NCBI RefSeq assembly: GCF_050003625.1
Contig: NC_134400.1
Span: 53,138,066 to 53,202,065, forward strand
Reading direction: 5' to 3'
DNA length: 64,000 nucleotides
Source of the DNA: Haematobia irritans
Lineage: Eukaryota > Arthropoda > Insecta > Diptera > Muscidae
The notes beneath the pieces were generated by a model. The model did not search any database, was not told the DNA's origin, and saw only the letters and a list, made by a program, of their open reading frames with translations. The position numbers were made by a program, and so were the translations under genes. Positions 17,124 to 63,578 of this stretch are shown here, in pieces (position 1 is the stretch's first letter; every line of letters begins with the position of its first letter).

Positions 17124-17357
17124 AGGTCCGCCAGTAATCTAAAGCTATATGCCCCTAAAATTCGCTTACGCCTTACACAAAATGAAGGATACTTAATTGA
17201 TACCTTTTCCTCCGCATCATGACAGCTCATACAATAGTCATTATACTTCGCACCAACAGTTTTTGCAAATTCGCCTATCAGCCAACGACCCGTTATAACA
17301 GATATCAGGAGTCATATCTGACGTCTTGAGAACACTAGCATAACTAGCGGTTTAAAT

Positions 17358-19098: not shown

Positions 19099-19467
19099 TG
19101 CTTGTAACTCCGCCGGAGTAATTCCATAAGGTCTAGGGATTTGAATGGTCCAAAGCTATTTAACGCCCATTTTATTCTAGATTCCGATAGAATTTCATGG
19201 TTCAACCGTCTGATTTCCAGGAAAATGTGTGTCCAATAGTATCTCCAGCATCTCCTCACTGGACGTTGTCCAATTGCCCTCCGATGGTTTAATGAAACCT
19301 GGAGCGGAGTTAGTGGATGCTAGACCTTCCGTAGTCAGGAAGCCTCGGACGAATTCTCAATACTGCTGCAGTGATCATTCCAAGAGTTATGCTGAGCCAT
19401 TCTCAGTTCTCGCTTGTATCCTCTCAGATTCTTCTTGTAAGCTTCCTGCAGGATTTCCTCATATTAC

Positions 19468-20060
19468 TTAACTCCGTAGACCACCATGGTGGTCGATTTT
19501 TCCCCTTGGCTTCCCTCTAGGGTATGCAGCTTTCAGTGAGATGTTGAAGGCCTTAGTAATCTGCTCCACTGCGTGTTCGATATCTTGCACAGTGCTTATA
19601 TTTGTCTCCGGATTGGAATAGGTATAGGGAATCAATGGTCTTGGTGGTATGAACATCAAATTTGAAACTGATGTAGCGATGATGAGAAGCGAAACCTCTT
19701 GTCTGGTTTTAGTAACGAAGGTTGGGGCATCTCCCTTATTGCAAACTAACAAATTAGTACGCAAAATAAACTCTAGGAGTAACTCTCCTCTTGTATTAAT
19801 GTCACCGCTTCCCCATATACTATGATGTGCATTTGCGTCGCATCCCATAATGAGTTTTGTCTTTGTTTCCAATGACTCCAATGACTATTTGCATTTGGCT
19901 ATTTCTAAACTGGCTACGACAATGTCTGCATTGTACATTGAAGGAAGCCGAAACAAGTTAAGCTCTTTTTTAAGCAATTATACAGTTTGAACCCCGTAGT
20001 ACTTAACTCACATATTTTGTTTCTATAAACATATGGTTCTTGAATAAGAACTATATCATG
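19468..20060 (-). pseudogene. LOA LINE ORF2 remnant: endonuclease part
   Basis: 19881 to 19468 encodes KLIMGCDANAHHSIWGS and NKGDAPTFVTKTRQEV of the apurinic-type endonuclease. The C-terminal SDHRYISF motif is deleted. The N-terminal IVLIQEPYVYRNKICEL stretch lies at 20060 to 19995, fused in frame to the ORF1 tail. Confidence 0.75.
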
Positions 20061-21572
20061 TCCCCTTTCTTCAGGAGATGAAAGGGGACAAGCAGATTTA
20101 TCTGGAGGATCCGTAGGACCATCGAAATTTTCAACAACCGTCACATCAGCCGTTTCAATCGAGTCATCAAGAATGTCCACTTCACAGATCTCGGTGACTC
20201 TCGCAATAACCATAGGTTCAACTTTGGTGAATTTTGAAGCAGTATAAACCTCTCGCATATCTGGAGGATCCGTAGGATCATCGCAATTTTCAACAACCGT
20301 CACATCAGCCGTTTCAATCGAGTCATCAAGAATGTCCACTTCACAGATCTCGGTGACTCTCGCAATAACCATAGGTTCAACTTTGGTGAATTTTGAAGCA
20401 GTATAAACCTCTCGCATATCTGGAGGATCCGTAGGACCATCAAAATTTTCCACAACCGTCACATCAGCCGTTTCAATCGAGTCATCAAGAATGTCCTCTT
20501 CACAGATCTCGGTGACTCTCGCAATAACCACAAGTTCAACTTTGGTGAATTTTGAAGCAGTATAAACCTCTCGCATACGGTGTCTATCCATATCTGCATC
20601 TTTGGTATCTCCCTCGACTTCGCAAGAAGATCTACTTATTTCTGATTCAGACAGAGGCTTGTCCATTTCTGAATCCTTTAGCTGATCGTTTTTATATACC
20701 TTCATTTGGATATAATGAAAGCCATAACATACACGGCGCTGCGACTTTGCTAGATGTGGCAAAGACTGAGTGTTCAATATAAACACTGCATGCCGTCTTG
20801 GTCCATCCACTTCATCCAAACGGACTGCATTGCATTGTTTCAGTCTGTTTAAAATAGATTCAGGGTCAGGAGCGTTTGCAGGTATCCACGCATGTGCTCA
20901 AGGTCTAGCCGGTATGTCTTTCTTCTCGACTAACTCTAGAACAGCTCCTTCCCAAACTTCACCAATTAGTATCAGAGCAGCTTTAAAACATTCTTTAGAC
21001 TTCTGGTCCTCAAATGCGACTAGCTTGAATCGTCCTTGATACCAACCAGCCTTTCGGTGTCGAGGATCTGGGCCGGGAAACTTTTCCAGCACCTGTGAGT
21101 AGACGCCAGGCAAAGCATTCTCAATTTCCCCCCACTTGAGCTTTGGAACAATACCGTCCACTGCTCCCCTATTAACAATCGCCATCACAAGACCGTTTTT
21201 TACAACTGAGGCAAACGATCTTTGATCCCGTTTGGAAGATGGCAGCTCATTCGGTGATCGTTCCCATTTTCCAACGTCAAGAATTCCATGAACCCATTTT
21301 AAGGAATCGCTTTGCTTAGCCGACGACGTGCTTGGGTCGACTGATCCTAATTTCTTTAGGATAAACAAAGCATTTATGCGTTCCTTGAATCTCTTTCGTG
21401 AAGGATTAGCTCCTTTAGATGTCGTTACCTTAGAAAAGGTTCGACTTGCCAAAGTGTCGCCACCTGTCGACCCGTCTACACGTCGACTAATTGGACCTAA
21501 TTCTTGGTCATTGCCCAAATTTATAACTTCAGTCGATGCCCGTCCACTGGGCCCTGAAGTTGGCAACCCCAT
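20061..21572 (-). pseudogene. LOA LINE ORF1 remnant with triplicated tail
   Basis: 21572 to 20898 covers the N-terminal half through the DUF4780-like segment (GWYQGRFKLVAFEDQ, GEVWEGAVLELVEKKDIPARP) and ends at a premature TGA. A further frame (20819 down) covers DEVDGPRRHAVFILNTQSLP and the acidic tail. That tail contains three tandem copies of a 53-residue unit, whereas the intact ORF1 has one. The last copy leads directly into endonuclease sequence through a deletion. Confidence 0.8.
20101..20577. repeat. Three 159-bp tandem units in LINE ORF1
   Basis: TCTGGAGGATCCGTAGGA starts at 20101, 20260 and 20419, so the period is exactly 159 bp (53 codons). The equivalent region of the intact element (about 53697-53855) has one unit. 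Confidence 0.9.
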
Positions 21573-21706
21573 GGATGGCTGAATTTCTCTGCATGGTGGC
21601 TAAATGTTCCACCACACTTGAAATTCGTAATAAGTACTTATTAGGATCATTAAATTGATCCAATATTAAAACACACGTCCGTTCAGTTCGACGGTTGAAT
21701 GACGAC

Positions 21707-26777: not shown

Positions 26778-27403
26778 ACAATGGAAAAATTAGAAATGGG
26801 TGCTGTCATTAAATATTTACATAAAAAAGGTTCATCGGGACAAGAAATGGATAATGATATGGTGCATGTGTTAGGTGAAAGTGCTCCTTCATATTAACAG
26901 TAAAAAAATGGGTAGCTGAATTTAAACGTGGTCGTACAAGCATTGAAGATGGACGTCCAAAAACAGCAACAACAACAGAAATTGTAGCCAAAGTGTATTA
27001 AATGATCGACGAATAAAAGTGCGTGAAATTGCTAATATCATGGGCATCTCAAATGATCGAGTCCATTTAATTTTGCATGAAGAACTACACGCAAAAAAAT
27101 TATTCTTTCCTCCCAAACGAAATTTTAGACAAACGAAGTTCGTTTCTCATTTCCTTTTCGTTGAATGGAAGTGTATTTGGAAGAAAAGTATATACTTTAT
27201 GTGATAAACGTTTATTCTTTTCCAAAATGTAAAAACAATTTCATAAAGACTAACTAAAAAAAAAAATTCTGGCTAATTGCATTTTCCCCTCACATCTTTC
27301 TCACTTCCACGAAGTTTTTAGTTCTTAGCACCTTTTTCTGTAATACAAACAATGTAGAAGAAATTATACGATTTTATAAATTTTTAAATTTTTTTACCTT
27401 TCG

Positions 27404-27478
27404 CCTGGACGGAGAATCGAACCGCGGACCATGCAATTTGTAAGCCAACACACTATCCACTGAGCTATGTAGCCGTTA
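27404..27478 (-). repeat. tRNA-like sequence (SINE head or decayed tRNA)
   Basis: The reverse strand reads TAGCTCAGTGGATAG (A box) and, about 30 bases on, GCGGTTCGATTCTCC (B box). The would-be acceptor arms pair poorly, so a functional tRNA is unlikely. Confidence 0.45.
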
Positions 27479-27588
27479 TTGTCATCAATAGACAATTACC
27501 TATATAAGTTATATTTATATGGCATAGCTTGCGGCGCCCACGAGCCGATTAAACAAAGTTTATTTCACAGAAAAATTCATTTAGTTGA

Positions 27589-27664
27589 ACACCATGGAGC
27601 AGTGGTTGCTACGTCTGACGTGCATGCCAAGGGTCGTGGGTTCGATCCCTGCTTCGACCAAAGT
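27589..27664 (+). repeat. tRNA-derived SINE head
   Basis: CCATGGAGCAGTGGTTGC (A-box-like) and GGGTTCGATCCCTGC (B box), ending GCTTCGACCA as in the SINE at 47328. A T-rich tract follows instead of the SINE body. Confidence 0.5.
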
Positions 27665-29164: not shown

Positions 29165-30076
29165 CAGTGAAACCTCTCAAACTTGCAAACTTCGAAGAAC
29201 GGACATCTCTCTAAAGTGGATAATTTCCATGAGACGTTTGACATATTATCACATTAACAACTCACAAGTAGTGGGAGCCACCCTGGTGCAATTGTTAGCA
29301 TGTCCGCCTTCGACCGCACACCAAAAATTTTTCAGCGGTGGATTATCCCATCTCAGTAATGCTGGTGACATTTCTAAGTCCTTCAAAGCTTCTCTAAGTG
29401 GTTTCACTGCAATGTGGAACGCTGTTCGGACTCGGCTATAAAATGGAGGTCCTAATCATTGAGGTAAAGATAGAATCGGGCAGCACTCAGTGATAAGAGA
29501 GAAGTTCACCACTGTGGTATCACAATGGACAGTGAGCCTGATACATCGGGCTGCCCTAAACATGAAACATGGTTTGGATGATCACATTCTTCCTCTGAAT
29601 TTTGATGAAGATGGTCCGTCGATATACCATTTTCATTTCTCGAGTATTTAAAAGGCGATTTGTTTGAGATACGAATTATAAGTTTTTTTATACCCGTAAA
29701 TTAATTTTCTGATGGCGGTTTGTATCGAATGATATCATGATCACAGGTCTCCTGGTTTTCTATTCTCAAATGTTCATCGTATTGAACCTCGCCATCAGGC
29801 CTTTTCATTCAGTTTGTAAATTATTAACAATTTTAGAGCATATGAAATTAGGTCCAGGAAATGTTCGGTTGTTCCACGAATTTAGATATTAAAATTTCAA
29901 TCATTTTATTTTTATTTTTCATATTTAATATCCCAAAAAAAGTCTTTGGGATTTTTGAGAGGAATTTTAAGTTGAGTCGGGAATTTTTTGGCAATGAAAG
30001 CGTTCCAATTTGGGGAAAAGAGCTAAAAAATACTGGCAACACAGACGGTGCGTGCCAATTCTGAGGGGTTTCACTG
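29165..30076. mobile_element. TA-flanked TIR element with pogo/Tigger-like ends
   Basis: Ends CAGTGAAACCTCTCAAAC and, inverted, CAGTGAAACCCCTCAGAA, with TA at 29163-29164 and 30077-30078. The CAGTGAAACC start and TA target are typical of pogo-like elements. No transposase remains. A SINE lies inside. Confidence 0.7.
29273..29566 (+). mobile_element. tRNA-derived SINE lacking its B box
   Basis: It starts GGGAGCCACCCTGGTGCAA. After ATGTCCGCC about 40 bases with the B box are missing and it resumes at TTCGACCGCACACC. The body and the tail with TGGTATCACAATGGAC and ATCGGGCTGCC match the copy at 47328. Loss of the B box should block RNA polymerase III transcription. Confidence 0.8.
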
Positions 30077-37471: not shown

Positions 37472-38628
37472 TTTTTTATTTTAACGATTCACTATGCTTC
37501 TTTTGAAAAAATACAAACAATTGCATGATTTATTCTACGGAAAAACTCCACAAAAGCATCCAAATATATGGAAATTCCACCAAATCCCCGACTCAAAAAT
37601 TTCGACCCCAAACCAAGAAAAAATATCCCTAACTTGGGAAAATACCCAGTACAAGTCGGTGTCCAACACTTTTTTACAGTGTATGCAACTACTAATTTTT
37701 GTCGCATTGTTTTGTGTCCAATAGCTGTGAATGATGTGAGAGCTCATGTTACGAAATCAAACGCCGAATGGACGGAATGATGAAAAATGCTGCCACAAAA
37801 GAAAACAAAAACTGTCACTCATGCAAAGTCAACGTCAACAACTTTGATAGGCACAATGAATGGTGTTGATTGTGGTCACTCAATTCCTCTTGGTTGGAAC
37901 TGGAGGAACGGACGACAAACAATATCAGATATGGGAAATTAGAAACTCTGTTGCCAGTGAATGTCGTACACTAAATCGCAGCACACAATGCCCTACATAG
38001 TGCAACATTGTAGAGGGCAAAATGCCATGCCATGCGATAGAATTCGTTGAACTCATTGACTGATTCTAACATAGATATTTGATCACCAACTATTGTATCA
38101 CAATGGATTGAATAGTCGTCTATGAAAGCCTTAAATATTGGGCAATCACTAACCAAACCTTAATTAGATATTGGGATTTGAAAGAGATACGATGACCACC
38201 TGTTTGCCATAAACCATTAACAAATGGTGGAAAAATGAAAAGTTTATTGTTTTACAAACATAAGTTGAGTTTCTCAAACATTAAAAGTAAAATTCATTCA
38301 AACTCTCTCGCTAGTTATTACTGTAAAAGTACGCGAACAGACCTACAACATGTATCGAGTTTTATTAATTCTGCAGTTTTATTGCAGCTCCAATTGCTGC
38401 GCTATGTTCAGTGCATTTATTTTTCGCTATGTCGCCATTTCTTCTGTTTTATCCGGGCAAACGAAAAACGTAAATTTCCAAAACTACCACAAAACACATC
38501 AACAGTTTTAGGTAGCAAATAAATGTGTGAGTGTGTGTGACGACATGAGAGTGTGCCTTGCTTTTTGGCCCATTATGCCGACGGTGGGAGGCGCAATGCA
38601 ACGGAGAAATTTTATCATGTAAATATGA
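37472..38628. other. Unassigned, possibly single-copy sequence
   Basis: Only short frames on both strands, none with recognisable motifs. A GTGTGTGTG tract near 38524-38540. Confidence 0.4.
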
Positions 38629-38806: not shown

Positions 38807-40020
38807 AAACAAGTATATACGGCCGTAAGTTCGGCCAGGCCGAAGCTTATGTACCCTCCATCATGGATTGCGTAGAAACTTCATCTATGCACTGCCATCC
38901 ACAATCGAATTACTTAAGTTGCGGTAACGCTTGCCGATGGAAAGGTATCTTAAAACCTCCTAACACCATCTTCTAAATTGTATGTAAGTCCATACGTGGT
39001 ATATATTAAATCAAAAAAGATCGATCCAATACGTATATAATTCAGTTTGACAAAGAGGACATACAATTTTGACAAAATTTTCTACAGAAATAAAATTTTA
39101 ACAAAATTTTCTATAGAAATGAACCGATATGGACCAATTTTTGTGTGATTGGACCAATTTTGGTATGGTTGTTAGCGACCATATACTAACACCACGTGCC
39201 TAATTTGAACCGGATTGGATGAATTGTGCTCCTCCAAGAGGCTCCGGAGGTCAAATCTGGAGAATGTTTTATATGGGGGCTATATATAATTATGGACCGA
39301 TATGGACCAATTCTGGCACGGTTGTTAAAGATCATATACTAACACCATGTTCCAAATTACAACCGGATTGAATGAAATTTGCTTCTCTTGGAGACTTCGC
39401 AAGCCAAATCTGGGGATCGGTTTATATGGGGGCTATATATAATTATGAACCGATGTGAACCAATGTTTGCATGGTTGTTAGAGACCATATACCAACATCA
39501 TGTACCAAATTTCAGCCGGATCGGATGAAATTTGCTTCTCTTTTAGGCTCCGCAAGCCAAATCTGGAGATCGGTTTATATGGGGGCTTAATATAATTATG
39601 GGCCGATGTGGTCCAATTTTTGCATGGTTGTTAGAGACCATATACCAACACCATGTACCAAATTTCAGCCGGATCGGATGAAATATGCTTCTGTTAGAGG
39701 CTCCACAAGCCAAATCTGAGGGTCCCTTTATATGGGGGCTATACGTAAAAGTGGACCGATATGGCCCATTTTCAATACCATCCGACCTACATCGATAACA
39801 ACTACTTGTGCCGAGTTTCACGTCGATAGCTTGTTTCGTTCGGAAGTTAGCGTGATTTCAACAGACGGACGGACGGACGGACGGACATGTTTAGAACGAC
39901 TCAGAATTTCACCACGACCCAGAATATATATACTTTATGGGGTCTTAGAGCAATATTTCGATGTGTTACAAACGGAATGACAAAGTTAATATACCCCCAT
40001 CCTATGATGGAGGGTATAAA
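38807..40020 (-). mobile_element. DINE family A, complete
   Basis: Hairpin TTCGGCCAGGCCGAA (about 38831), subterminal repeat, short minisatellite, about three units of about 153 bp, GGAC tract (39865), core, and the end CCTATGATGGAGGGTATAAA. Confidence 0.8.
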
Positions 40021-41454
40021 AAGATCGATCCAATACGTATTTAATTCAGTTTGACAAAGTAGACATAAAATTTTGACAAAATTTTCTACAGAAAAAAAAT
40101 TTTAACAAAATTTTCTATAGAAATAAAATTTTCACAAAATTTTCTATAGAAATAAAATTTTTGACAAAATTTTCTATAGAAATAAAATCTTGGTAGATTA
40201 TTTTTGGCTCGAGTGGCAACCATGATTATGAACCGAATAAAATTTGAACAAAATTTTCTATAGAAATAAAATTTTGACAATGATGAAAATTTTATTATGA
40301 ACCGAATAAAATTTTAACAAAATTTTCTCTAGAAATAAATTTTTGACAAAATTTTCTATAGAAATAAAATTTTGGTAGATTATTTTTTGCTCTAGTGGCA
40401 ACCATGATTATGAACTGATATGGACCAATTTTTGTGTGATTGGACCAATTTTGGTATGGTTGTTAGCGACCATATACTAACACCACATTCCTAATTTGAA
40501 CCGGATCGGATGAATTTGCTCCTCCAAGAGGCTCCGGAGGTCAAATCTGGAGAACGTTTTATATGTGCGCTATATATAATTATGGACCGATGTGGACCAA
40601 TTTTTGCACGGTTGCTAGAGACCATATACCAATACCATGTACCAAATTTCAGCCGGATTGGATGCAACTTGCTTCTCTTTGAGGCTTCGCACGCCAAATC
40701 TGGAGATCGGTTTATATGGGGGCTATATATAATTATGGACCGATGTGGACCAATTTTTGCATGATTGTTAGAGACCATATACCAACACCATGTACCAAAT
40801 TTCAGCCGGATCGGATGAAATATGTTTCTCTTAGAGGCTCCACAAGCCAAATCTGGGGATCGGTTTATATGGGGGCTATATATAATTTAAGGACCGATAT
40901 GGACCAATTTTTGCATGGTTGTTAGAGACCATATACCAACATCATGTACCAAATTTCAGCCGGATCGGATGAAATTTGCTTCTCTTTGAGGCTCCGCAAG
41001 CCAAATCTGGGGATCGGTTTATATGGGGGCTATATATAATTATGGACCGATGTCGACCAATTTTTGCATGATTGTTAGAGACCATATACTAACACCATGT
41101 ATCAAATTTTAGCCGGATCGGATGAAATATGCTTCTGTTAGAGGCTCCACAATCCAAATCTGAGGGTCCCTTTATATGGGGGCTATACGTAAAAGTGGAC
41201 CGATATGGCCCATTTTCAATACCATCCGACCTACATCGATAACAACTACTTGCGCCAAGTTTCAAGTCGATAGCTTGTTTCGTTCGGAAGTTAGCGTGAT
41301 TTTAACAGACGGACGGACATGCTTAGATCGACTCAGAATTTCACCACGACCCAGAATATATATACTTTATGGGGTCTTAGAGCAATATTTCGATGTGTTA
41401 CAAACGGAATGACAAAGTTAATATACCCCCATCCTATGATGGAGGGTATAAAAA
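40021..41454 (-). mobile_element. DINE family A, tandem partial duplicate
   Basis: It restarts at GATCGATCCAATACGTAT as inside the preceding copy. It repeats the minisatellite (40050-40380), about four units, the core and the same end (ATGATGGAGGGTATAAAA). The hairpin end is not repeated, so this is a tandem partial duplication. Confidence 0.75.
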
Positions 41455-45222: not shown

Positions 45223-46268
45223 TTAATCTTTAAAATAAATAATCCTATGCAGGAAAATAAGGACGCTTAACTTAAGAAGATTGTGAAAAGTCATATTATA
45301 TAAACATTCGGAGAAAGCTGAAATACTATCATATCTTCGTATACCATATACGTAGCGAGTAATGCTATCGAACGTCCTATTCAGTCTCTGCATGCTTAGA
45401 GCATCGCACTTAGCAAAAAGTTCACAACCGTATAGCATAATAGGCATCAAAAATGATTTGGCTAAGATAACCCTTATTCATAGAGGACTACAATGTTGTG
45501 ATCGTCACAGTGTCCTAAGTATTGAATAAACTCGTCCACACGTGGCAGCAATCTGATCGGACCACGTCAGAGTACTGTTGAATATTACCCAAGATTCCTG
45601 GCACGCTCTACTATCTCAATCGTCTGATTATCTATTTTTATGTCGACATTAATCCTAGACCTCACTGTTCGCCCTTTAATCACCAAACACTTAGATTTCA
45701 TTGGATTAATAGTAAGGCCATTGGCCGATGCCCACATTGATATCCTTTCCAGGTCCTCATTCAATAATGCCTCACAGCTACCAATTGATGACAGTTCGCA
45801 CCCAATATATAACTGAATATCATCTGCATACATTCGCATCCGACAGTGCCTTACTTGCATAGGTAGATCATTAGAATATAGGGAGAAGAGCAAGGGTCCC
45901 AATATAGAACCTTGCGGAACACCCCTGTTTACCACCCGCATTTGTGATCGCTTGTCCCCAATCCTAACATATTGATACCTATCTGAAAGGTATGATGAAA
46001 TCAATCTTGTTGATGTAATCGAAAACCCAAAGAAATTGTGTAATTTAGCACCAAGTAAGTCATGGTCTACGGTGTCAAATGCTTTAGAATGATCTAAAAG
46101 CACTAATAACACATACCTCCTTTCATCTATAAAGCGCCTAATATCCTCCGACACGTCAACAAGTGCAGTAGTACAGCTATTTTTCTCCCGAAAACCAGAT
46201 TGTACATCCGTTAACAAGGCATTTCGGAGATGTTTCGAAATAATGGATAATTTTAAATAAAAATACAA
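45223..46268 (-). pseudogene. LINE reverse transcriptase pseudogene, 5'-truncated
   Basis: The reverse strand from 46268 encodes VQSGFREKNSCTTALVDV, then LLDHSKAFDTVDHDLL with a catalytic Asp, RGVPQGSILGPLLFSLYSND and the active-site RMYADDIQLY. A frameshift after ERARNLG (about 45585) moves the thumb region (TLTWSDQIAATCGRVY) to another frame. Stops follow before MMPIMLYGCELFAKCDAL (45450 to 45223). The motif style is that of CR1/Jockey-group LINEs and differs from the LOA copies and the fragment at 1-815. Confidence 0.8.
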
Positions 46269-47312: not shown

Positions 47313-47327
47313 AGACGCAAACTGATG

Positions 47328-47668
47328 GTTAGGTTAGGTGGCAGCCCGATGTATCAGGCTCACTTAGACTATTCAGTCCATTGTGATACCACATTGGTGA
47401 ACTTCTCTCTTATCACTGAGTGCTGCCCGATTCCATGTTAAGCTCAATGACAAGGGACCTCCTTTTTATAGCCGAGTCCGAATGGCGTTCCACATTGCAG
47501 TGAAACTACTTAGAGAAGCTTTGAAACCCTCAGAAATGTCACCAGCATTACTGAGGTGGAATAATCCACCGCTGAAAAACTTTTTGGTGTGCGGTCGAAG
47601 CAGGAATCGAACCCACGACCTTGTGTATGCAAGGCGGGCATGCTAACCATTGCACCACGGTGGCTCCC
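47328..47668 (-). mobile_element. Full-length tRNA-derived SINE with a LINE-shared tail
   Basis: A 341-bp element flanked by a 15-bp target duplication AGACGCAAACTGATG (47313-47327 and 47669-47683). On the reverse strand it starts GGGAGCCACCGTGGTGCAA with the A-box-like TGGTGCAATGGTTAG and the B box GGGTTCGATTCC, so the head is tRNA-derived. A body of about 170 bp follows. The last about 70 bp (TGGTATCACAATGGACTGAA ... TCGGGCTGCCACC ... AACCTAACC) match the 3' end of the LOA LINE at 49990-50075. It should be transcribed by RNA polymerase III and mobilised by the LINE's enzyme. Confidence 0.9.
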
Positions 47669-47718
47669 AGACGCAAACTGATGAAAACGCTAACAAATAA
47701 TTCTTATATTTACATAAA

Positions 47719-48994
47719 ACAGGATGGGTGATAAGTCCCCGGTCTGACACATAGATGGCGTCGCTAGTATTAAATGCATATTAATTTTATATAGAACCAA
47801 CCTTCAAATGATTCGTGTTAAAATTTGACGTCTGTAAGTCAATTAGTTTGTGAGATATAGCGTCTTTTGTAAAGCAACTTTTGTTATTGTGAAAAAAATG
47901 GAAAAAAGGAATTTCGTGTTTTGATAAAATACTGTTGTCTGAAGGGAAAAAATACGGTGGAAGCAAAAACCTGGATTGATAACGAGTTTCCGGACTCTGC
48001 CCCAGGGAAATCAACAATAATTGATTGGTATGCAAAATTCAACCGTGGTGAAATGAGCACGGAGGACAGTGAACGCAGTGGACGCCCGAGGTGGTTACCG
48101 ACGAAAACATCAAAAAATCCACAAAATGATTTTGAATGACCGTAACATGAAGTTGATCGAGATAGCAGAGGCCTTAAAAATATGAAAGGAACGTGTTGGT
48201 CATATCATTAATCAATATTTGGATATGCGGAAGCTCTGTTCAAAATGGGTGCGAGCTCACATTTGACCAAAAACAACAACGTGTTGATGATTCTGAGCGG
48301 TGTTTGCAGGTGTTAACTCGTAATACACCCTAGTTTTCCATCGATATGTGACAATGGATGAAACATGGCTCCATCACTACACTCCTGAGTCCAATCGACA
48401 GTCGGCTGAGTGGACAGCGACCGGTGAACCGACTCCGAAGCGTGGAAAGACTCAAAAGTCCGCTGGCAAAGTAATGGCCTCTGTTTTTTGGGATGCGCAT
48501 GGAATAATTTTTATCGATTTTCTTGAGAAGGGAAAAACCATCAACAGTGACTATTATATGGCGTTATTGGAGCGTTTGAAGGTCGAAATCGCGGCAAAAC
48601 GGTCCCATATGAAGAAGAAAAAAGTGTTGTTCCACCAAGACAACGCACCGTGCCACAAGTCATTGAGAACGATGGCAAAAATTCATGAATTGGGCTTCGA
48701 ATTGCTTACCCACCCACCGTATTCTCCAGATCTGGCCCCTAGCGACTTTTTCTTGTTCTCAGACTTCAAAAGGATGCTCGCAGGGAAACAATTTGGCTGC
48801 AATGAAGAGGTGATCGCCGAAACTGAGGCCTATTTTGAGGCAAAACCGGATGAGTACTACCAAAATGGTATCAACAAATTGGAAAGTCGTTATAATCATT
48901 GTATCGCTCTTGAAGGGAACTATGTTGAATAATAAAAACGAATTTTGACAAAAAAATTGTTTTTCTTTGTTAGACTTATCAGCCAACCAGTTAC
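47719..48994 (+). mobile_element. Himar1-like mariner (irritans subfamily)
   Basis: The left end ACAGGATGGGTGATAAGTCC continues CCCGGTCTGAC. The right end, inverted, is GTAACTGGTTGGCTGATAAG and lacks the following CCCCGGT block. Length about 1.28 kb, as for Himar1. Confidence 0.85.
47898..48932 (+). pseudogene. Himar1-like mariner transposase pseudogene
   Basis: It starts MEKR with a one-base loss that shifts frame at once, then continues KYCCLKGKNTVEAKTWIDNE and the GRP linker. Further small losses occur near 48095 and 48115, a TGA stop at about 48184 (EALKI then stop), and a TAG before the first catalytic block. From 48348 the frame is clean to the end: MTMDETWLHHYTPESN with the first Asp, FHQDNAPCHKSLRTMAK with the second, and YSPDLAPSDFFLFSD with the third (34 residues apart, DD34D), ending CIALEGNYVE. 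The catalytic half is well preserved and very close to Himar1; the N-terminal half is destroyed. Confidence 0.9.
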
Positions 48995-49001
48995 TTAACT
49001 A

Positions 49002-49586
49002 CCCGTCAAAAAATTTGCAAGTTTTTCTCAAGGCACAACTTTAAAAGAACTTCCAAAAATGCCCTCCCAAAGATGTTCTTTATTTTACAGGCACAAGAAC
49101 TTGTTTTGAGTCAATTTTTTTATAACTCGCTTTTTTCATATTTTTTCATATTTTTTAACGGGAAATTTATTTTGTTTTGTTTCAAATAGGTTAAAAACAG
49201 ATTAAGAATTAATAAAATGGTACAAATTATTTAAATTTAGCCGAAAAAATGTTAAATCCTTTCTAGATATATTGCCAATTTTTGAAAATATTTGATGACG
49301 AACCTTTCAAACAAGCGTAATAATGCTTTAAAAATCATAAATAATTTCAAAAATTATTTATTTGTCAAAATATCACAAAAAAATCTTAATTCACATCCAA
49401 AACACTGAATTAACCTCACACCTTAAGAAGTGATGCAAATTCAGTGCAGCGGCTGTTGAAATGGTGGACATCCGTCCTATGACAAGCCCATATTAAATTC
49501 ATCGCTTATGCGTCAATTTGGCACCACTTCCGGATCCAAAAAGAACATTTCCCCTACTTTTTTGGCGACGCTTTTTTTTTGCTGGG
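49002..49586. mobile_element. Family C MITE, uninterrupted copy
   Basis: TA at 49000-49001 and 49587-49588. Left CCCGTCAAAAAATTTGC, right inverted CCCAGCAAAAAAAAAG. It serves as the reference that shows where other copies are split. Confidence 0.7.
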
Positions 49587-49588
49587 TA

Positions 49589-49884
49589 TAGGGTCAAAAC
49601 GACTTCATTGAAAAAACTTTATATCAGAGAAATGCTTCTTCTATCCCAAACAAAAAATTGGAAGTTGTTCCACAAATATTTCTTTTAAAGCGCGTCCCGG
49701 AATCCCCCATTAAGTTTATTCCACTTCCGATGCAGTCCTTTTGGACGGGACCCCGAACCCCGGGATCTCCTATCGATTTTTTTTCACTTCCGATGCAGTT
49801 CTGTTGTCCAAAAGTCATAGAAAGTACGAAATTAGGCCGTTTTAAGTGAAAATTTAAGTTTTGCACAATTAAATTTAAATAAAA
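49589..49884. other. Unassigned with a short family E-like piece
   Basis: 49595-49650 resembles part of family E (AAACGACTTCATTGAAAAAA, AGAGAAATGCTTCTTCTAT). The rest is unassigned. A near-direct repeat at 49728-49807 (CACTTCCGATGCAGT twice) is present. Confidence 0.4.
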
Positions 49885-49989
49885 ACAAGTATATACGGCC
49901 GTAAGTTCGGCCAGGCCGAATCTTATGTACCCTCCACCATGGATTGTGTAGAAACTTCTACGAAAGACTATCATCCACAATCGAATTAC
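49885..49989 (-). mobile_element. DINE family A 3' end, split from 55031-56230 by the LOA LINE
   Basis: AACAAGTATATACGGCCG, hairpin TTCGGCCAGGCCGAA, GTACCCTCCACCATGG. It stops at ATCGAATTAC, which is repeated at 55021-55030 where the same element continues. Confidence 0.8.
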
Positions 49990-50128
49990 GTAGGTTAGGT
50001 TAGGTTAAAGTGGCAGCCCGATTAAGATTCAGGCTCACTTAGACTATTCAGTCCATTGTGATACCACATTAACTAAAAGTACCTATTACATATGGGCACT
50101 TCTAGTTTTAACCGCTGAACCTTCTTGA

Positions 50129-53100
50129 TTATTTTTCTTTGTTGAACCAACCAGATTGTTCCAAAAACATTAGCAGACTGCTTAAGTTAACGTTTTCCAG
50201 ATCCGCCAGTAATCTGAAGCTATATGCTCCTAAAAGTTGCTTGCGCTTTACACAAAATGCAGGACACTCACACAAGAGGTGTTTAATTGATTCTTTTTCC
50301 TCCGCATCATGACAGCTCATACAATAGTCATTATACTTCGCGCCAATAGTTTTTGCAAAATCTCCTATCAGGCAGCGACCCGTTATAGCAGATATCAGGA
50401 GTGATATCTGACGTCTCGAGAACATTAGCATATCTAGTGTGCGGTTTAAGTTGAAATGGGGCCATATTTGCTTGGTGTCGTTACAACCCTTGCAATTCTC
50501 CCATCGAACATTTGCCATCATAACAACCTTCTCACGCAGCATGAGCTTGCAGGTAGCTAGGGGCATACCAACAAATTCTAGTTCCCCTGGAATATGTAAG
50601 GTAGTCCCTAGCCTTGCCAACTCATCGGCTTCGCAGTTCCCCGGTATGTTCCTATGGCCAGGCACCCATATTAGGTGAATATTGTACTGCTCAGCCATCT
50701 CATTGAGAGATTTGCGGCAATCGATGGCCGTTTTCGAGTTGAGGAACACAGAGTCCAAGGATTTTATTGCAGGTTGACTGTCTGAGTATATATTAATGCC
50801 CACATTTTTTGGAACATTACTTCTCAGCCAATTCGCCACCTCTCTTATTGCTAATATTTCAGCCTGAAAAACACTACAGTGATTAGGTAATCTTTTCGCT
50901 ATTTGAAGTTCCAAATCATTAGAATATACTCCGAAACCCACTTGTCCATCCAATTTGGAGCCATCAGTGTAGAAATCTATATATTCTTTATTCCCCGGGG
51001 TCTGTGTGCACCACGCCTCACTGTTGGGGATTAGAGTCTCAAACTTTTTGTCGAAAAGTGGACTCGCCAAAGTGTAATCCACTACGTTAGGCACATCTGA
51101 CATTGTTTTGAGGACAGAACTGTGACCGTAACCTTTTTCCGACCACAGCGATAGTTCGCGCAACCGCACAGCCGTTGTTGCAGCTGACTGTTTGGCCAAA
51201 ATGTCTAAAGGCAATAGATGCAGCATGACATTAAGGGAATTTGTTCCTGTCTTGCTGAATGCGCCTGAAATACACAAACACGCCATACGCTGAACTTTAT
51301 CTAAACCAGTCGGTTTCTGAAGTGCCGGCCACCAGACTACAACACCATATAGCATTATAGGTCTAACCACTGCCGTGTATAGCCAATGCACAATTTTTGG
51401 TTTTAGTCCCCACTTTTTTCCTATTGCCTTTTTGCACGAGTACAAAGCTACAGTTGCCTTCCTCGCCCTTTCTTCAATATTAAGCTTAAAGTTCAGCTTC
51501 CTGTCCAAAATAACGCCAAGGTATTTTGCACAATCACCAAAGGGAATTTCAATACCCCCTAAGGAAATAGGCCTAACCGTGGGAGTTTTGCGATCTTTGC
51601 AGTACATGACTAATTCTGTCTTTGCAGGATTTACCCCAAGACCATTGTCTTTCGCCCATTTTTCAGTCCTCCGGAGGGCCCTCTGAATAATATCTCTGGT
51701 TGTGGATGGGAATTTTCCCCTGACTGCCAGAGCTACATCATCTGCGTATGCCACCACTTTTATCCTTTCTTTTTCTAGAGTAGCCAGAAGGCTATTTATA
51801 GCAACATTCCAAAGAAGAGGTGATAGAACTCCTCCTTGGGGAGTGCCTCTGTTCACATACTTTTGTATGTTTGCTTGTCCTAGTGTGGCTGAAATACGTC
51901 TCTTCATTAGCAGTTCGTCTAACAGCCTGAGTATACATGGATCAACATTCAGAGTTGTCAGTCCATTTAATATCGAGCTCGGATGGACATTATTGAACGC
52001 CCCTTCGATGTCTAGAAACGCCACGATTGTGTATTCTTTGACAGATAGTGAGCTTTCAATAAAGCTGACTAGTTCATGTAGTGCGGTCTCAGTAGACCTG
52101 CCCTTCGAGTATGCATGCTGTCGTTTCGAGAACAAACTTGAATCGATGCTAGTTCTAAGATAAATATCTATCATCCTCTCCAGAGTCTTAAGTAGGAATG
52201 AGGATAAGCTGATTGGTCGGAAATCCTTCGCCCTCGAGTGAGAGGCTTTTCCCGCTTTAGGTATGAAGACGACTTTTGTTTCCCTCCACTTTCCTGGGAT
52301 ATATGATAAGTTGATACATCCTTTATATATCACCGACAACCAGGGGATAATTTTGTCAGTTACAGCTTGTAACTCCGCCGGAGTAATTCCATCAGGTCCA
52401 GGGGATTTGAATGGTCCAAAGCTATTTAACGCCCATCTTATTCTAGTTTCCGATACAATTTCCTCGACAGGAAACGACCGCTGAGCAACTGCGGCACCGC
52501 CAGTACATGGTTCAACCGTCTGATTTCCAGGAAAATGTGTGTCCAATAGTACCTCCAGCGTCTCCTCACTGGACGTTGTCCAATTGCCCTCCGATGTTTT
52601 AATGAAACCTGGAGCGGAGTTAGTGCATGCTAGAACCTTCCGTAGTCTGGAAGCCTCGGACGTATTCTCAATACTGCTGCAGTAATCATTCCAAGAGTTA
52701 TGCTGAGCCTTTCTCAGTTCTCGCTTGTATCCTCTCAGAATCTTCTTGTAAGCGTCCCAGTCCTCAGAAGCTCTGGTGGACTTTGCCTTGTTAAAGAGCT
52801 TCCTGCAGGATTTCCTCATATTACTTAATTCCGTAGACCACCATGGTGGTCGATGTTTCCCCCTTGGCTTTCCTCTAGGGCATGCAGCTTTCAGTGAGAT
52901 GTTGAAGGCCTTAGTAATCCGCTCCACTGCGTATTCGATATCTTGCACATTTCTCATATTTGTCTCTGTTATTTCCGGTATCATCATATTGAACGATTCC
53001 CTATACCTATTCCAGTCAGCTTTCCTAACATTTGGCGGAAATATGATCTTGGTGATATGAACATCAAATTTGAAACTGATGTAGCGATGATCTGAGAAGC

Positions 53101-53734
53101 TGTGTTCACTTAAAACCTGCCACTCAGATATCATTTCATTCAGTTCTTGCGAGGCCAAGGTGATGTCCAAAACCTCTTGCCTGTTTTTAGTGACAAAGGT
53201 TGGGACATCTCCCTTGTTGCAAACTACCAGATTAGTACGCAAAATAAACTCTATTAGCGACTCTCCCCTTGCATTAGTATCACTACTTCCCCATATACTA
53301 TGATGTGCATTCGCATCGCATCCCATAATGAGTTTCGTCTTTGTTTTCCGTGACTCCTCCACTAAGGTCTTAACGGCATATGGAGGCATCTCCCTGTCAT
53401 GTCCCATGTAGACCGAAGATACCCAATATTTGCATTTGGCTATTTCTAAACTGGCAACGACAGTGTCTGTATTGCACATTGAAGGAAGCAGAAACAAGTT
53501 GAGCTCGTTTTTAGCAATTATACAGGCTCGATTTACATCATTACCACTATACTGCAATAGTTTGAACCCCGGAGTACTTAATTCACATATTTTGTTTTTA
53601 TAAACATATGGTTCTTGAATAAGAACTATATCTATGTCCCCTTTCATCAGGAGAACTTTTAAGGCAGCACATGCAGCCTTACAATGATGAAGATTTATCT
53701 GGAGGATCCGTAGGACCATCGAGATTTTCAACAA
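50129..53734 (-). CDS. LOA LINE ORF2: endonuclease, reverse transcriptase, RNase H
   Basis: A 1201-residue polyprotein without stops. Residues 1-225 are an AP-type endonuclease that nicks the target: N14 (LQINLHH), E41 (LIQEPYVY), D140/N142 (GCDANAHHSIWG) and H216 (SFSDHRYIS). Residues about 440-760 are the reverse transcriptase: DFRPISLSS (504-512), FLDIEGAFNN with D574, GTPQGGVLSPLL (630-641) and VVAYADDVALAV with the 665/666 Asp pair. Residues about 915-1045 are RNase H with D924 (FYTDGS), E959, D985 (IYSDSQ) and D1037 (CEADELAR). A CCHC-like cluster lies at 1138-1157. This domain order is that of the LOA/I group; the endonuclease style favours LOA. It overlaps ORF1 by 56 bp in another frame, suggesting reinitiation or frameshifting. 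A second start lies 5 codons on. Confidence 0.9.
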   Translation of the reverse strand: MLKISMVLRILQINLHHCKAACAALKVLLMKGDIDIVLIQEPYVYKNKICELSTPGFKLLQYSGNDVNRACIIAKNELNLFLLPSMCNTDTVVASLEIAKCKYWVSSVYMGHDREMPPYAVKTLVEESRKTKTKLIMGCDANAHHSIWGSSDTNARGESLIEFILRTNLVVCNKGDVPTFVTKNRQEVLDITLASQELNEMISEWQVLSEHSFSDHRYISFKFDVHITKIIFPPNVRKADWNRYRESFNMMIPEITETNMRNVQDIEYAVERITKAFNISLKAACPRGKPRGKHRPPWWSTELSNMRKSCRKLFNKAKSTRASEDWDAYKKILRGYKRELRKAQHNSWNDYCSSIENTSEASRLRKVLACTNSAPGFIKTSEGNWTTSSEETLEVLLDTHFPGNQTVEPCTGGAAVAQRSFPVEEIVSETRIRWALNSFGPFKSPGPDGITPAELQAVTDKIIPWLSVIYKGCINLSYIPGKWRETKVVFIPKAGKASHSRAKDFRPISLSSFLLKTLERMIDIYLRTSIDSSLFSKRQHAYSKGRSTETALHELVSFIESSLSVKEYTIVAFLDIEGAFNNVHPSSILNGLTTLNVDPCILRLLDELLMKRRISATLGQANIQKYVNRGTPQGGVLSPLLWNVAINSLLATLEKERIKVVAYADDVALAVRGKFPSTTRDIIQRALRRTEKWAKDNGLGVNPAKTELVMYCKDRKTPTVRPISLGGIEIPFGDCAKYLGVILDRKLNFKLNIEERARKATVALYSCKKAIGKKWGLKPKIVHWLYTAVVRPIMLYGVVVWWPALQKPTGLDKVQRMACLCISGAFSKTGTNSLNVMLHLLPLDILAKQSAATTAVRLRELSLWSEKGYGHSSVLKTMSDVPNVVDYTLASPLFDKKFETLIPNSEAWCTQTPGNKEYIDFYTDGSKLDGQVGFGVYSNDLELQIAKRLPNHCSVFQAEILAIREVANWLRSNVPKNVGINIYSDSQPAIKSLDSVFLNSKTAIDCRKSLNEMAEQYNIHLIWVPGHRNIPGNCEADELARLGTTLHIPGELEFVGMPLATCKLMLREKVVMMANVRWENCKGCNDTKQIWPHFNLNRTLDMLMFSRRQISLLISAITGRCLIGDFAKTIGAKYNDYCMSCHDAEEKESIKHLLCECPAFCVKRKQLLGAYSFRLLADLENVNLSSLLMFLEQSGWFNKEK

Positions 53735-54908
53735 CCGTCACATCAGCCGCTTCAATCGAGTCATCAAGAATGTCCTCTTCAGAGACATCGGTGACTCTCG
53801 CAATAACCATAGGTTCAACTTTGGTGAGTTCTGAGGCAGTAGAAGCCTCCTCACGCATACGGTATCTATCCATGTCTTCAAATGTCTTGGTATCCCCCTC
53901 GACTTCGCAAGAGGATCCGCTTACTTCTGATTCAGACAGAGGCTTGTCCATTTCTGAATCCTTTAGCAGATCGTTTTTATACACCTTCATTTGGATATAA
54001 TGAAAGCCATAACATACACGGCCCTGGGACTTTGCTAGATGTGGCAAAGACTGAGTGTTCAATATAAACACTGCATGCCGTCTTGGCCCATCCACTTCAT
54101 CCAAACGGCCAACCTTCCAATCAGCTGTTGGAAGATCTGGATTGCATTGTTTCAGTCTATTTAAAATAGATTCAGGGTCAGGAGGGTTTGCAGGTATCCA
54201 CGCATGTGCTCTTGGTCTAGCCGGTATGTCTTTCTTCTCGACTAACTCTAGAGCAGCTCCTTCCCAAACTTCACCAATTAGTATCAGAGCAGCTTTAAAA
54301 CATTCTATAGACCTCTGGTCCTCAAATGCGACTAGCTTAAATCGTCCTTGATACCAACCAGCCTCTTGGTGTCGAGGATCTGGGCCGGGAAACTTTTCCA
54401 GCACCTGTGAGTAGACGCCAGACAAAGCATTCTCAATTTCCCCCCATTTTTGCTTTGGAACCATACCGTCCAATGCTCCTTTATTAATGATAGCCATCAC
54501 AAGGCTGTCTTTAGCAACTGAGGCAAACGATCGTTGATCCCTTTTGGAGGATGGCAGCTCATCCGGTGATCGTTCCCTTTTTCCAGCCTCAAGAATTCCT
54601 TGAGCCCATTTTAAGGAATCGCTTTGTTTAGCCGACAACGTGCTTGGGTCGATTGATCCTAATTTCTTTAGGATAAACAAAGCATTTCTGCGTTCTTTGA
54701 ATCTCTTTCGTGAGGGATTACCTCCTTTTGATGCCGTTACCTTGGAAAAGGTCCGACTTGTCAAATTGTCGCCACCTGTCGACCCGTCTACAGGTCGACT
54801 AATTGGGCCTAACTCTTGGTCACTGCCCAAATCTATAACTCCAGTCGATACTCGTCCACTGGGCCCTGAAGTTAGCAACCCAGTGGATGTCTTTGAATTT
54901 CTCTGCAT
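53679..54908 (-). CDS. LOA LINE ORF1: DUF4780-like RNA-binding protein
   Basis: A 409-residue protein, the expected nucleic-acid-binding chaperone that packages the LINE RNA. The N-terminal 130 residues are Ser/Lys/Arg-rich and look disordered (NPSRKRFKERRNALFILKKL). Residues about 140-312 resemble the DUF4780 domain found in LOA-type ORF1 proteins (GWYQGRFKLVAFEDQRS, GEVWEGAALELVEKKDIPAR, PRRHAVFILNTQSLPHLA). The C-terminal 95 residues are acidic (EEDILDDSIEAADVTVVENL). No CCHC knuckles are seen, unlike many ORF1 proteins. The start is the first ATG after the short 5' UTR. The decayed copy at 20061-21572 has a triplicated tail. Confidence 0.85.
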   Translation of the reverse strand: MQRNSKTSTGLLTSGPSGRVSTGVIDLGSDQELGPISRPVDGSTGGDNLTSRTFSKVTASKGGNPSRKRFKERRNALFILKKLGSIDPSTLSAKQSDSLKWAQGILEAGKRERSPDELPSSKRDQRSFASVAKDSLVMAIINKGALDGMVPKQKWGEIENALSGVYSQVLEKFPGPDPRHQEAGWYQGRFKLVAFEDQRSIECFKAALILIGEVWEGAALELVEKKDIPARPRAHAWIPANPPDPESILNRLKQCNPDLPTADWKVGRLDEVDGPRRHAVFILNTQSLPHLAKSQGRVCYGFHYIQMKVYKNDLLKDSEMDKPLSESEVSGSSCEVEGDTKTFEDMDRYRMREEASTASELTKVEPMVIARVTDVSEEDILDDSIEAADVTVVENLDGPTDPPDKSSSL

Positions 54909-55030
54909 GGTGGCCTAATATCCCACCACACTTGAAATTCGTAGTAGGTACTTATTACGATGATTTTATCCGCTATTAAAAAACACGTCCGTTCCGTTCG
55001 ACGGTTGAAATAAGAATCCCATCGAATTAC

Positions 55031-56230
55031 TTGGGTTGTGGTATCTTAGTACATACGCGGTATATATTAGACAAAACAGTTATGTATAGGTAAGTCTACA
55101 AATAATTACGAATCGATATGGACTTTTTGCACGATACGTAGAGGGCCAGAATTGAAATATGGGGGTCGCTTATATGGGGGCTATATACAATTATGAACTT
55201 GATATGGACCAATTTTTGTGTGATTGGGGATCGATTTATCTGAGGGCTATATATAACTATAGGCCGATATGGACCTAGTTAGGCATGACTGTAACTGACT
55301 CGGATGAAATTTGCTCCTCCAAGAGGCTCCAAAACCAAATCTCAGGATCGATTTATATGGGGGCTATATATGATTATGGACTGATATGGACCACTTTTGG
55401 CATGGTTGTTAAATATCATATACTACCACCACGTAACAAATTTCATCCAGATCGGATGAATTTTGCTTCTCCAAAAGGCATCGGAGGTCAAATCTTGGGA
55501 TCGGTTTATATGGGGGCTATATATAATTATGGACCGATTTCGACACATTTTTGCATGGGTTTTTGAGGCCATATATTAACACCACGTACCAAATTTCAAC
55601 TGAATCAGATGATTGTTGGTCTTCCAAGAGGCTCCGGAGGTCAAATCTGGTTATCGGTTTAAATGGGGGCTATATATAATTATGAACCGATATGGACCAA
55701 TTTTTGCATGGTCATTAGAGACCATATACTAACATCATGTAACAAATTTCAGCCTGATCGGATGAAATTTGCTTCTCTTAGAGGCTCCGGAGGTCAAATC
55801 GGGGGATCGGTTTATATGGGGGCTATATATAATTATGGACCGATGTGGACCAATTTCTGCGTGGTTGTTAGAGACCATATACTAACACCATGTACTAAAT
55901 TTCAGCCGGATCGGATGAAATTTGCTTCTCTTAGAGGACCCGCAAGCCAAATTTTGGGGTCCGTTTATATGGCGGCTATACGTAAAAGTGGACCGATATA
56001 GCCCATTTGCAATACCATCCGACCTACATCAACAACTACTTGTGCCAAGTTTCAAGTCGATAACTTGTTCCGTTCGGAAGTTAGCGTGATATCAACAGAC
56101 GGACGGACATGCTCAAATCGACTCAGAATTTCACCACGACCCAGAATATATGTACTTTATGGGGTCTTAGAGCAATACAAACGGAATGACAAAGTTAATA
56201 TACCCCCCATCCTATGGTGGAGGGTATAAA
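55031..56230 (-). mobile_element. DINE family A, main part of the copy split by the LOA LINE
   Basis: It continues from 49989: units with GGGGGCTATATATAATTATG, a short GGAC tract (56097) and core, ending CCTATGGTGGAGGGTATAAA. Confidence 0.8.
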
Positions 56231-56439: not shown

Positions 56440-56450
56440 TTAAATCTAGG

Positions 56451-57685
56451 TTAGGTTAGGTTAAAGTGGCAGCCCGATGAAGATTCAGGCTCACTTAGAC
56501 TATTCACTCCATTGTGATACCACATTAACTAAAAGTACCTATTACATATGGGCACTTCTAGTTTTAATCGCTGAACCTTCTCGATTATTTTCTTCTGTTG
56601 AACCAACCAGATTGTTCCAAAAACATTAGCAGACTGCTTAAGTTAACGTTTTCCAGGTCCGCCAGTAATCTGAAGCTATATGCCCCTAAAATTTGCTTAC
56701 GCCTTACACAAAATGCAGGACACTCACGCAAGAGGTGTTTTATTGATTCCTTTTCCTCCGCATCATGACAGCTCATACAATAGTCATTATACTTCGCACC
56801 AATAGTTTTTGCAAAATCGCCTATCAGGCAGCGACCCGTTATAGCAGATATCAAGAGTGATATCTGGCATCTCGAGAACACTAGCATATCTAGTGTGCGG
56901 TTTAAGTTTAAATGGGGCCATATTTGCTTGGTGTCGTTACAACCCTTACAATTCTCCCATCGAACATTTGCCATCATGACAGCATTCTCACGCAGTAAGA
57001 GCTTGCAGGTAGCCAGAGGCATACCAACAGATTCTAGTTCCCCTGGAATATGTAAGGTAGTTCCTAGCCTTGCTAGCTCATCTGCTTCGCAGTTCCCCGG
57101 TATGTTCCTGTGGCCAGGCACCCATATTAGGTGAATATTGTGCTGATCAGCCATCTCATTGAGAGATTTGCGGCAGTCGATGGCCGTTTTCGAGTTGTGG
57201 AACACAGAGTCCTAGGATTTTATTGCAGGTTGACTGTCTGAGTATATATTAATGCCATATTGCTTGGAGCATTACTTCTCAGTCAATTCACCACTTCTCT
57301 TATTGCTAATATTTCAGCCTGAAAAACACTACAGTGATCAGGTAATCTTTTCTCTATTCGAAGTTCCAGATCTTTAGAATATACTCCGAAACCCACTTGG
57401 CCATCCAATTTGGAGCCATCAGTGTAGAAATCTATACATCTTTTATTCCCCGGGGTCCGTGTACACCACGCCTCACTGTTGGGAATTAGAGTCTCAAACT
57501 TTTTGTCGAAAAGTGGTCTCGCCAGAGTGTAATCCACTAAGTTAGGCACATCTGGCATAATTTTGAGGACCGAACTGTGACCGTAACTTTGTTCCGACCA
57601 CAGCGATAGCTCGCGCAACCGCACAGCCGTTGTTGCAGCTGACTGTTTGGCCAAAATGTCTAAAGGCAATAGATGCAGTATGACA
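56451..57685 (-). mobile_element. LOA LINE, 5'-truncated copy
   Basis: It starts (3' end) TTAGGTTAGGTTAAAGTGGC and is flanked by the duplication TTAAATCTAGG (56440-56450 and 57686-57696). It is 1.2 kb long, covering the last third of ORF2 and the full 3' UTR. This is a typical incomplete reverse transcription product. Confidence 0.9.
56585..57669 (-). pseudogene. LOA LINE ORF2 C-terminal pseudogene
   Basis: 57669 to 57283 encodes LPLDILAKQSAATTAVRLRE through RNase H DFYTDGSKLDGQVGFGVYSK. A frameshift near 57265 and a TAG at KSLDS (about 57213) break it. 57205 to 56585 encodes the rest: NCEADELARLGTTL, the Cys cluster YNDYCMSCHDAEEKESIKHL and the end MFLEQSGWFN. The RT and endonuclease are absent by 5' truncation, so it was never functional. 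Confidence 0.85.
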
Positions 57686-57696
57686 TTAAATCTAGG

Positions 57697-59400: not shown

Positions 59401-60091
59401 TTGGTAGATTATTTTTGGCTCGAGTGACACCACGATTGTGAACCGATATGGACCAATTTTTGTGTGATTGGGGATCGGCTATATATAACTATAGACCGAT
59501 ATGGACCAATTTCGGCATGGTTATTAGCGGTCTTATACTAACACCACGTTGCAAATTTCAACCGGATCGGATGAATTTTGCTCCTCCAGGAGGCTCCGGA
59601 GATCAAATCTGGGGAACGGTTTATATGGGGGCTATATATAATTATGGACCGATATGAACCAATTCTTGCGTGTTTGTTAGAAACCACATTCTAACACCAT
59701 GTTCCAAAATTCAACCGGATCGGATGAATTTTACTCCTCCAAGAGGCTCCGGAGGACAAATCTGGGGATCGATTTATATGGGGGCTATATATAATTAAGG
59801 ACCGATATGGACCAATTCTTGCATGGTTGTTAGAGACCATATACTAACACCAGGTAACAAAATTCAATCGGATCGGATGAATTTTGCTCCTCTAAGAGGC
59901 TCCGGAGGTCAAATCTGGGGATCGGCTTATATGGGGGGTATATATAATTATGGGTCGATGTGGACCAATTTTTGCATGGTCATTAAAGAACATATACCAA
60001 CACCATGTACCAAATTTCAGCCGGATCGGATGAAATTTGCATCTCTTAGAGGCTCCGCAAGCCAAATCGGGGGATCGGTTTATATGGGGGC

Positions 60092-63470: not shown

Positions 63471-63482
63471 TAGTTGAGTGAT

Positions 63483-63578
63483 AAAACTAGAAGTGCCCAT
63501 ATGTAATAGATATTGTTAGTTAATGTGGTATCACAATGGACTGAATAGTCTAAGTGAACCTGAAACTAATCTAACCTA
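63483..63578 (+). mobile_element. LOA LINE 3' end fragment (96 bp)
   Basis: AACTAGAAGTGCCCATATGT, TAGTTAATGTGGTATCACAA and CTAACCTAAC match the 3' UTR and tail of the intact LINE (50115 to 49990 reversed). Since the CTAGAAGTGCCC part is LINE-specific, it is a severely 5'-truncated LINE and not a SINE. Confidence 0.8.

Follow-up and report, generated by a model that had tools for sequence, protein, structure and literature searches.

The horn fly, Haematobia irritans, is a pest of livestock. A 64-kb stretch of its genome (the window) contains several copies of a LINE and of a tRNA-related SINE. The full-length LINE, about 5.03 kb in length, lies on the minus strand (49990-55020) and carries two genes, both of which are open, so that the element is intact as the sequence-only reading of the window had described it. 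ORF1 (53679-54908, minus strand) encodes a protein of 409 amino acids with a DUF4780 domain, and ORF2 (50129-53734, minus strand) encodes a protein of 1201 amino acids with endonuclease, reverse transcriptase, and RNase H domains. The LINE is flanked by a target duplication, one copy of which lies on its 5' side (55021-55030; ATCGAATTAC on the plus strand) and the other on its 3' side (49980-49989). A 5'-truncated copy with the same tail (56449-57685, minus strand) is likewise enclosed by a duplication, at 57686-57694 and 56440-56448 (TAGATTTAA on the sense strand). Another LINE 3' fragment in the window, some 90 bp long and with its tail partly deleted, lies at 63482-63571 (plus strand), and a diverged LINE copy in several pieces, without the 3' end, lies at 17122-21699 (minus strand). 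Further reverse transcriptase fragments (RVT_1) were seen on the minus strand at 3-806 and 45585-46268.

The SINE is represented by a copy of 341 bp, SINE A (47328-47668, minus strand), which possesses a tRNA-related head and the 3' end CCTAACCTAAC. The copies of its target duplication lie at 47669-47683 on the 5' side (AGACGCAAACTGATG on the plus strand) and at 47313-47327 on the 3' side. SINE A is adjoined by a mariner-like element (47720-48960) whose transposase is partly open (Transposase_1, 48348-48932). For a second copy, SINE B (29273-29556, plus strand), a target duplication was looked for by eye and none was seen. A decayed tail at 38083-38158 (plus strand) looks like a SINE remnant, because the TCACCAA upstream of it is found in the SINE and not in the LINE. 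An older, tailless SINE copy is represented by its 5' part at 8663-8836 (plus strand). Two further tRNA-like heads in opposite orientations, at 27400-27480 and 27590-27659, possibly belong to other SINE families; the latter matches the SINE head at 77%, and the former was recognised by eye only. The window additionally contains many copies, partly in tandem, of a degenerate repeat around ATGGGGGCTATATATAATTATGGACCGATATGGACC (BLAST, by eye), with blocks near 3000-4310, 14970-15860, 39120-41220, 55340-55870, and 59430-59980.

Copies of the LINE elsewhere in the genome include others with open genes. Of 22 copies, nine, counting that of the window, can be aligned as a single piece across almost their full length at 91-100%. 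Several of the 20 copies that were fetched are truncated; an ORF2 of at least 1195 codons is open in six of these 20, the copy in the window not being counted, and in three of the six (L040, L043, and L058) an ORF1 of about 408 codons is open as well. The best species-labelled protein matches to the LINE, at 52-53%, are in Drosophila grimshawi, D. rhopaloa, and D. obscura; four other matches reach 60-63%, and a search with the ORF1 protein matched four proteins, one of them from Haematobia irritans. A comparison of ORF2 with viral contigs gave six stretches, none of which was confirmed. The order of endonuclease, reverse transcriptase, and RNase H in ORF2, together with the presence of two open reading frames, is the layout of the LOA clade, which takes its name from an element of Hawaiian Drosophila, and is also found in certain other I-group clades. 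The LINEs of Drosophila that bear an RNase H are of the I and LOA types. On these grounds, the LINE described here likely belongs to the LOA clade.

The SINE has the features of its kind: it is short (341 bp), non-coding, and present in many copies with target duplications. An A box (TGGTGCAATGG) and a B box (GGTTCGATTCC) are present in the majority sequence of 50 rows, comprising 49 loci and SINE A, which is itself also one of the loci (L009). Given these two boxes, the SINE RNA would be expected to be made by RNA polymerase III. Compared with the Rfam tRNA model, SINE A scores 19 bits (E 0.32), which is below the gathering score of 29; a scan of the whole window against Rfam returned no match, and ARAGORN called no tRNA within the 64 kb.

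The two elements share their 3' terminus. The shared tail occupies 47328-47395 of SINE A, including a pentamer repeat, and 49999-50070 of the LINE, where the repeat extends to 49993 (both on the minus strand). When the two ends are aligned, 66 of 67 aligned columns are identical, with six further gapped positions, and the first 42 bases are identical and ungapped. The local alignment score is 108, as compared with a maximum of 26 when the last 150 bases of the LINE were dinucleotide-shuffled 1000 times, and the SINE body without its tail scores just 24 against the LINE. The sequence-only reading had described the SINE tail as nearly the same as the end of the LINE, which this alignment confirms, and had placed both to within a few bases. 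It had also attributed the same tail to SINE B. This holds for the sequence that remains, since all 42 aligned bases of SINE B are identical, but not for the tail as a whole: the alignment includes 16 gapped positions, an 11-bp deletion has taken out most of the first of two predicted hairpins (hairpin 1, see below), and a single CCTAA stands in place of a pentamer array.

We searched for the tail in the 1.173-Gb assembly of Haematobia irritans (Muscidae). A 39-bp core of the tail occurs exactly 23,925 times, and the backwards pattern used as a control occurs 0 times. Patterns consisting of the tail and the adjoining bases of either element identified 24,904 exact SINE-type 3' ends and 4,600 exact LINE-type ends, a ratio of about 5 to 1, with 0 matches to either backwards control; these patterns are shorter than the core, so their sums may not agree with the core count. 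The tail is therefore part of both families across the genome. Places matching the core were picked irrespective of their flanks; 100 were listed, and the first 20 of them are all SINE-like. Eighteen of them were recognised by BLAST; the other two (L062 and L072) each have a target duplication and are assigned to the SINE on about 9-12 bp of SINE body alone, followed by the tail. A search with SINE A produced 3766 candidates, and all 40 of those scored, SINE A included, reach base 339-341 of 341; these 40 are 98-100% identical and nearly full length, and three further rows are partial. The tail pattern had 0 matches in viral contigs and in other genome contigs, a set from which records of near relatives were possibly left out. 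SINE-type tails also lie within a few kb of the LINE copies L051, L052, L054, L055, and L056, and in L046 a SINE-type tail (5576-5647) lies inside the 3' region of the LINE.

Target duplications delimit the retrotransposed unit in both families. The SINE A search supplied 30 loci, SINE A among them, of which L037 was left out as a local duplicate of L018; the remaining 29 and 20 more from the core list form the SINE set of 49 loci. A duplication scoring at least 9 is present at 32 of these 49 loci, as compared with 0.6% of permuted pairs, and is 9-16 bp long with a median of 13 bp; the remaining 17 loci are without a duplication at this threshold. In 31 of the 32, the duplication follows directly upon the CCTAA-type repeat, give or take shared bases, which indicates that the repeat, and with it the tail, is retrotransposed together with the rest of the element; in the one exception, L012, 15 non-repeat bases separate the two. 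Half of the SINE duplications (16/32) start with TA, a dinucleotide that makes up 8% of the dinucleotides in the window, so TA is in excess at the SINE junction. Among 22 LINE copies, 20 fetched and two in the window, 12 have a duplication at a score of at least 8 (control 2.5%), a count in which at least three calls (L039, L045, and L049) look spurious and which is weakened by the inclusion of flanking sequence in the search query. Thus, in the comparison of target duplications that had been proposed alongside that of the 3' ends, the repeat precedes the duplication in both families, and the duplications lie outside the shared repeat. Two SINEs (C3:53295064-53295405 and C3:34829108-34829448) lie within or next to the tail of a copy in the opposite orientation, the first with flanking matches on both sides and the second on one side. 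One SINE sits between partial matches to the oppositely oriented copy, 293-341 and 262-310, whose overlap of 18 bases we read as a clean target duplication.

A TACG insertion motif was considered for the LINE and rejected. All 20 fetched copies ended in CCTACG, but the query contained the ACGTA flank of the copy in the window; among 20 LINE ends picked by pattern and inspected by eye, none ended in CCTACG, 13 had CCTA followed by other bases, six ended otherwise, and one was unreadable. The CCTACG ends are therefore an artefact of sampling with a query that included flank.

The tail is predicted to form a structured element in the RNA of both families. In the minimum-energy fold, an outer stem closes a three-way junction, and the structure further comprises an inner UCAC/GUGA stem together with hairpin 1 (UGGACU-GAAU-AGUCUA) and hairpin 2 (GCCUGA-loop-UCGGGC). 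The z-score of the fold energy is -3.3 for the SINE, a level reached by 1 of 500 shuffles, and -3.8 for the LINE (3 of 500). Pair probabilities, computed for the complete SINE RNA and for the 400 bases at the 3' end of the LINE, are 0.77-1.0 for both hairpins in both RNAs. Those of the inner stem are 0.43-0.88 in the SINE and 0.53-0.84 in the LINE, weak at one end in both, and those of the outer stem are 0.27-0.47 in the SINE, where it would be half formed, and 0.5-0.85 in the LINE.

Hairpin 1 is identical in the SINE and the LINE; in hairpin 2 the stem is kept and the loop is mostly different. The loop is TACA in 44 of the 49 SINE loci, those from the SINE A search having been found with the loop in the query (among the core-list loci, TACA is present in 16 of 20 by eye), and it is ATCTTAA in 12 of 20 LINE ends; six other LINE ends have loops of lengths 6 to 11, and two are unreadable. 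All sampled tails were selected for the stem sequence. The flank of the LINE is joined to the loop of the SINE at just 8 exact genomic sites, which, together with the difference between the loops, argues that the SINE tail was not newly copied from the LINE tail of today. The separation of the two tails is thus old enough for the loop to have diverged, while the stems and hairpin 1 still agree.

These results support the interpretation offered by the sequence-only reading, that the SINE and the LINE are a pair in which the LINE enzyme recognises the shared tail. We read them as a pair of the stringent type, both moved by target-primed reverse transcription, and assign this a probability of about 0.8. 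Both families share a 3'-terminal sequence that ends at the target duplication, with the repeat abutting it. From this we infer that the SINE is mobilised by the protein of this LINE. The divergence of the second loop bears on whether it is this LINE that moves the SINE. A third LINE family with a TACA loop might do so instead, the LINE in the window being a related element whose tail is similar; differences between the SINE and this LINE do exist in the hairpin 2 loop and in the bases after GCCAC (CCACCTAA at the junction in the SINE), and the rarity of sites that join the LINE flank to the SINE loop would also be explained. However, none of the first 20 of the 100 listed tail carriers belongs to a third family, and 6 of the 100 listed core places coincide by eye with LINE-type places, so we regard such a family as unlikely. 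It is rather improbable that the LINE acquired its tail from the SINE, or both from a third source, in which case the pair would work alike. None of the present results polarises the direction of transfer, and the preponderance of SINE-type over LINE-type ends could be read in favour of this history; against it, the LINE needs its own tail for movement, and the reviewed cases are described as transfers from LINE to SINE (PMC3747384). There is next to no chance that the likeness reflects the insertion of a LINE fragment into one particular SINE copy. Nothing was found in favour of this, and it is refuted by the presence of the tail at the end of thousands of SINE-type copies and by its position within the target duplications.

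The tail repeat, AACCT, is the TTAGG repeat on the other strand, and it could therefore mark insertion into telomere-like DNA rather than the tail of an RNA. Ten tandem units of TTAGG have 310 overlapping matches genome-wide (backwards control 1), and the first 100 listed extend over C1 into the beginning of C2. Those on C1 form 23 interstitial clusters with short runs of 50-100 bp, none of which lies within 3 Mb of either end, and C1 therefore gives no sign of TTAGG telomeres; a dipteran would be expected to lack them. Such clusters are compatible with ordinary microsatellites or with slippage at the tails of elements. Both this distribution and the duplicated target sequences, which are not TTAGG arrays, make insertion into telomere-like DNA very improbable. 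A different connection would be that the enzyme of the LINE uses the (CCUAA)n of LINE or SINE RNA as a telomerase-like template, to which a TA-ended target anneals and is extended with TTAGG. We consider this distinctly improbable; were it true, the ancestral telomere repeat would continually be scattered along the chromosomes by the pair, which could now and then also heal broken ends.

In the mechanism that we propose for a stringent pair, the SINE RNA would end in a copy of the LINE tail, comprising the two predicted hairpins followed by (CCUAA)n. The ORF2 protein, by analogy with other LINEs, would bind the shared tail in either LINE or SINE RNA and nick the target, whereupon the new 3' end would anneal to the repeat, often through TA. 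Copying would then start in the CCUAA repeat on either RNA and lead to full-length or 5'-truncated insertions flanked by duplications some 8-16 bp long. Hairpin 1, which has a GAAU loop, would be expected, on the predicted fold, to be a better candidate for the specificity element than hairpin 2, because hairpin 1 and its loop are identical in the two families and the loop of hairpin 2 is not; given this difference, strict recognition of the hairpin 2 loop is improbable. In L2-type LINEs of the zebrafish, the part of ORF2 that lies between the endonuclease and the reverse transcriptase binds the stem-loop of the tail, the stem being recognised generally and the loop specifically (PMC4176376). 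The matching region of the horn fly ORF2, residues about 285-360, is rich in lysine and arginine by eye and holds many invariant columns in an alignment of the protein from the window with 11 chosen from 120 listed matches.

Stringent SINE/LINE pairing is itself already known (UnaL2, HaRTE1/HaSE1, and PxLINE1/PxSE5), the eel SINE partner of UnaL2 being named UnaSINE1. A dipteran case is the Gecko SINE and MosqI LINE of Aedes aegypti, in which the tandem-repeat tail of the SINE resembles the tail of an I-clade LINE; both the clade and the tail are other than those of the horn fly pair. The tail of UnaL2, an L2-clade LINE of eel, consists of a stem-loop and a TGTAA repeat and is shared with an eel SINE (PMC3747384). 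UnaL2, ZfL2-1, and ZfL2-2 resemble the horn fly LINE in having a stem-loop followed by a short tandem repeat (PMC4176376, PMC3747384), whereas the horn fly LINE has the endonuclease, reverse transcriptase, and RNase H order, two open reading frames, two predicted hairpins, and a CCTAA repeat; in the zebrafish LINEs binding has been seen (PMC4176376), and the horn fly pair is known from sequence and predicted fold. In Helicoverpa armigera, HaRTE1 is paired with HaSE1 and HaSE3, and HaSE1 is a tRNA-derived insect SINE that has, as here, target duplications and a microsatellite tail, its LINE-like 3' end being 43 bp long with 82% identity (PMC3272025). That pair differs in having an RTE-type LINE, a trinucleotide tail, and a lower identity (PMC3272025). 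PxSE5 of Plutella xylostella is another insect SINE with a LINE-related tail (43 bp, 84%), with a 13-bp target duplication on PxLINE1 and a tetranucleotide repeat; unlike the SINE described here, PxSE5 is derived from 5S rRNA and is paired with a different LINE (PMC8010984).

Among other flies, SINEs are described as almost absent from Phormia regina in a paper on that species, and the whole word SINE, in the singular, does not occur in the main text of the Stomoxys genome paper. The main text of a 2013 review of SINEs and LINEs, apart from its figures, has no word starting with LOA (PMC3747384), and no SINE with a LOA tail was seen among the titles and abstract openings of the papers listed from the open-licence literature, 25 of 457 in the largest search, a scope outside which Repbase reports fall. 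The horn fly pair is thus possibly the first instance of a LOA-clade LINE with a SINE partner. If the LINE does belong to this clade, stringent tail recognition would be extended to a clade without a SINE partner in the literature searched. How the protein of a LINE selects its RNA can naturally be tested on SINE/LINE pairs whose tail is defined. With near-identical tails that differ mainly in one loop, several open LINE copies, and about 24,900 SINE-type ends, the horn fly pair makes the specificity element directly testable.
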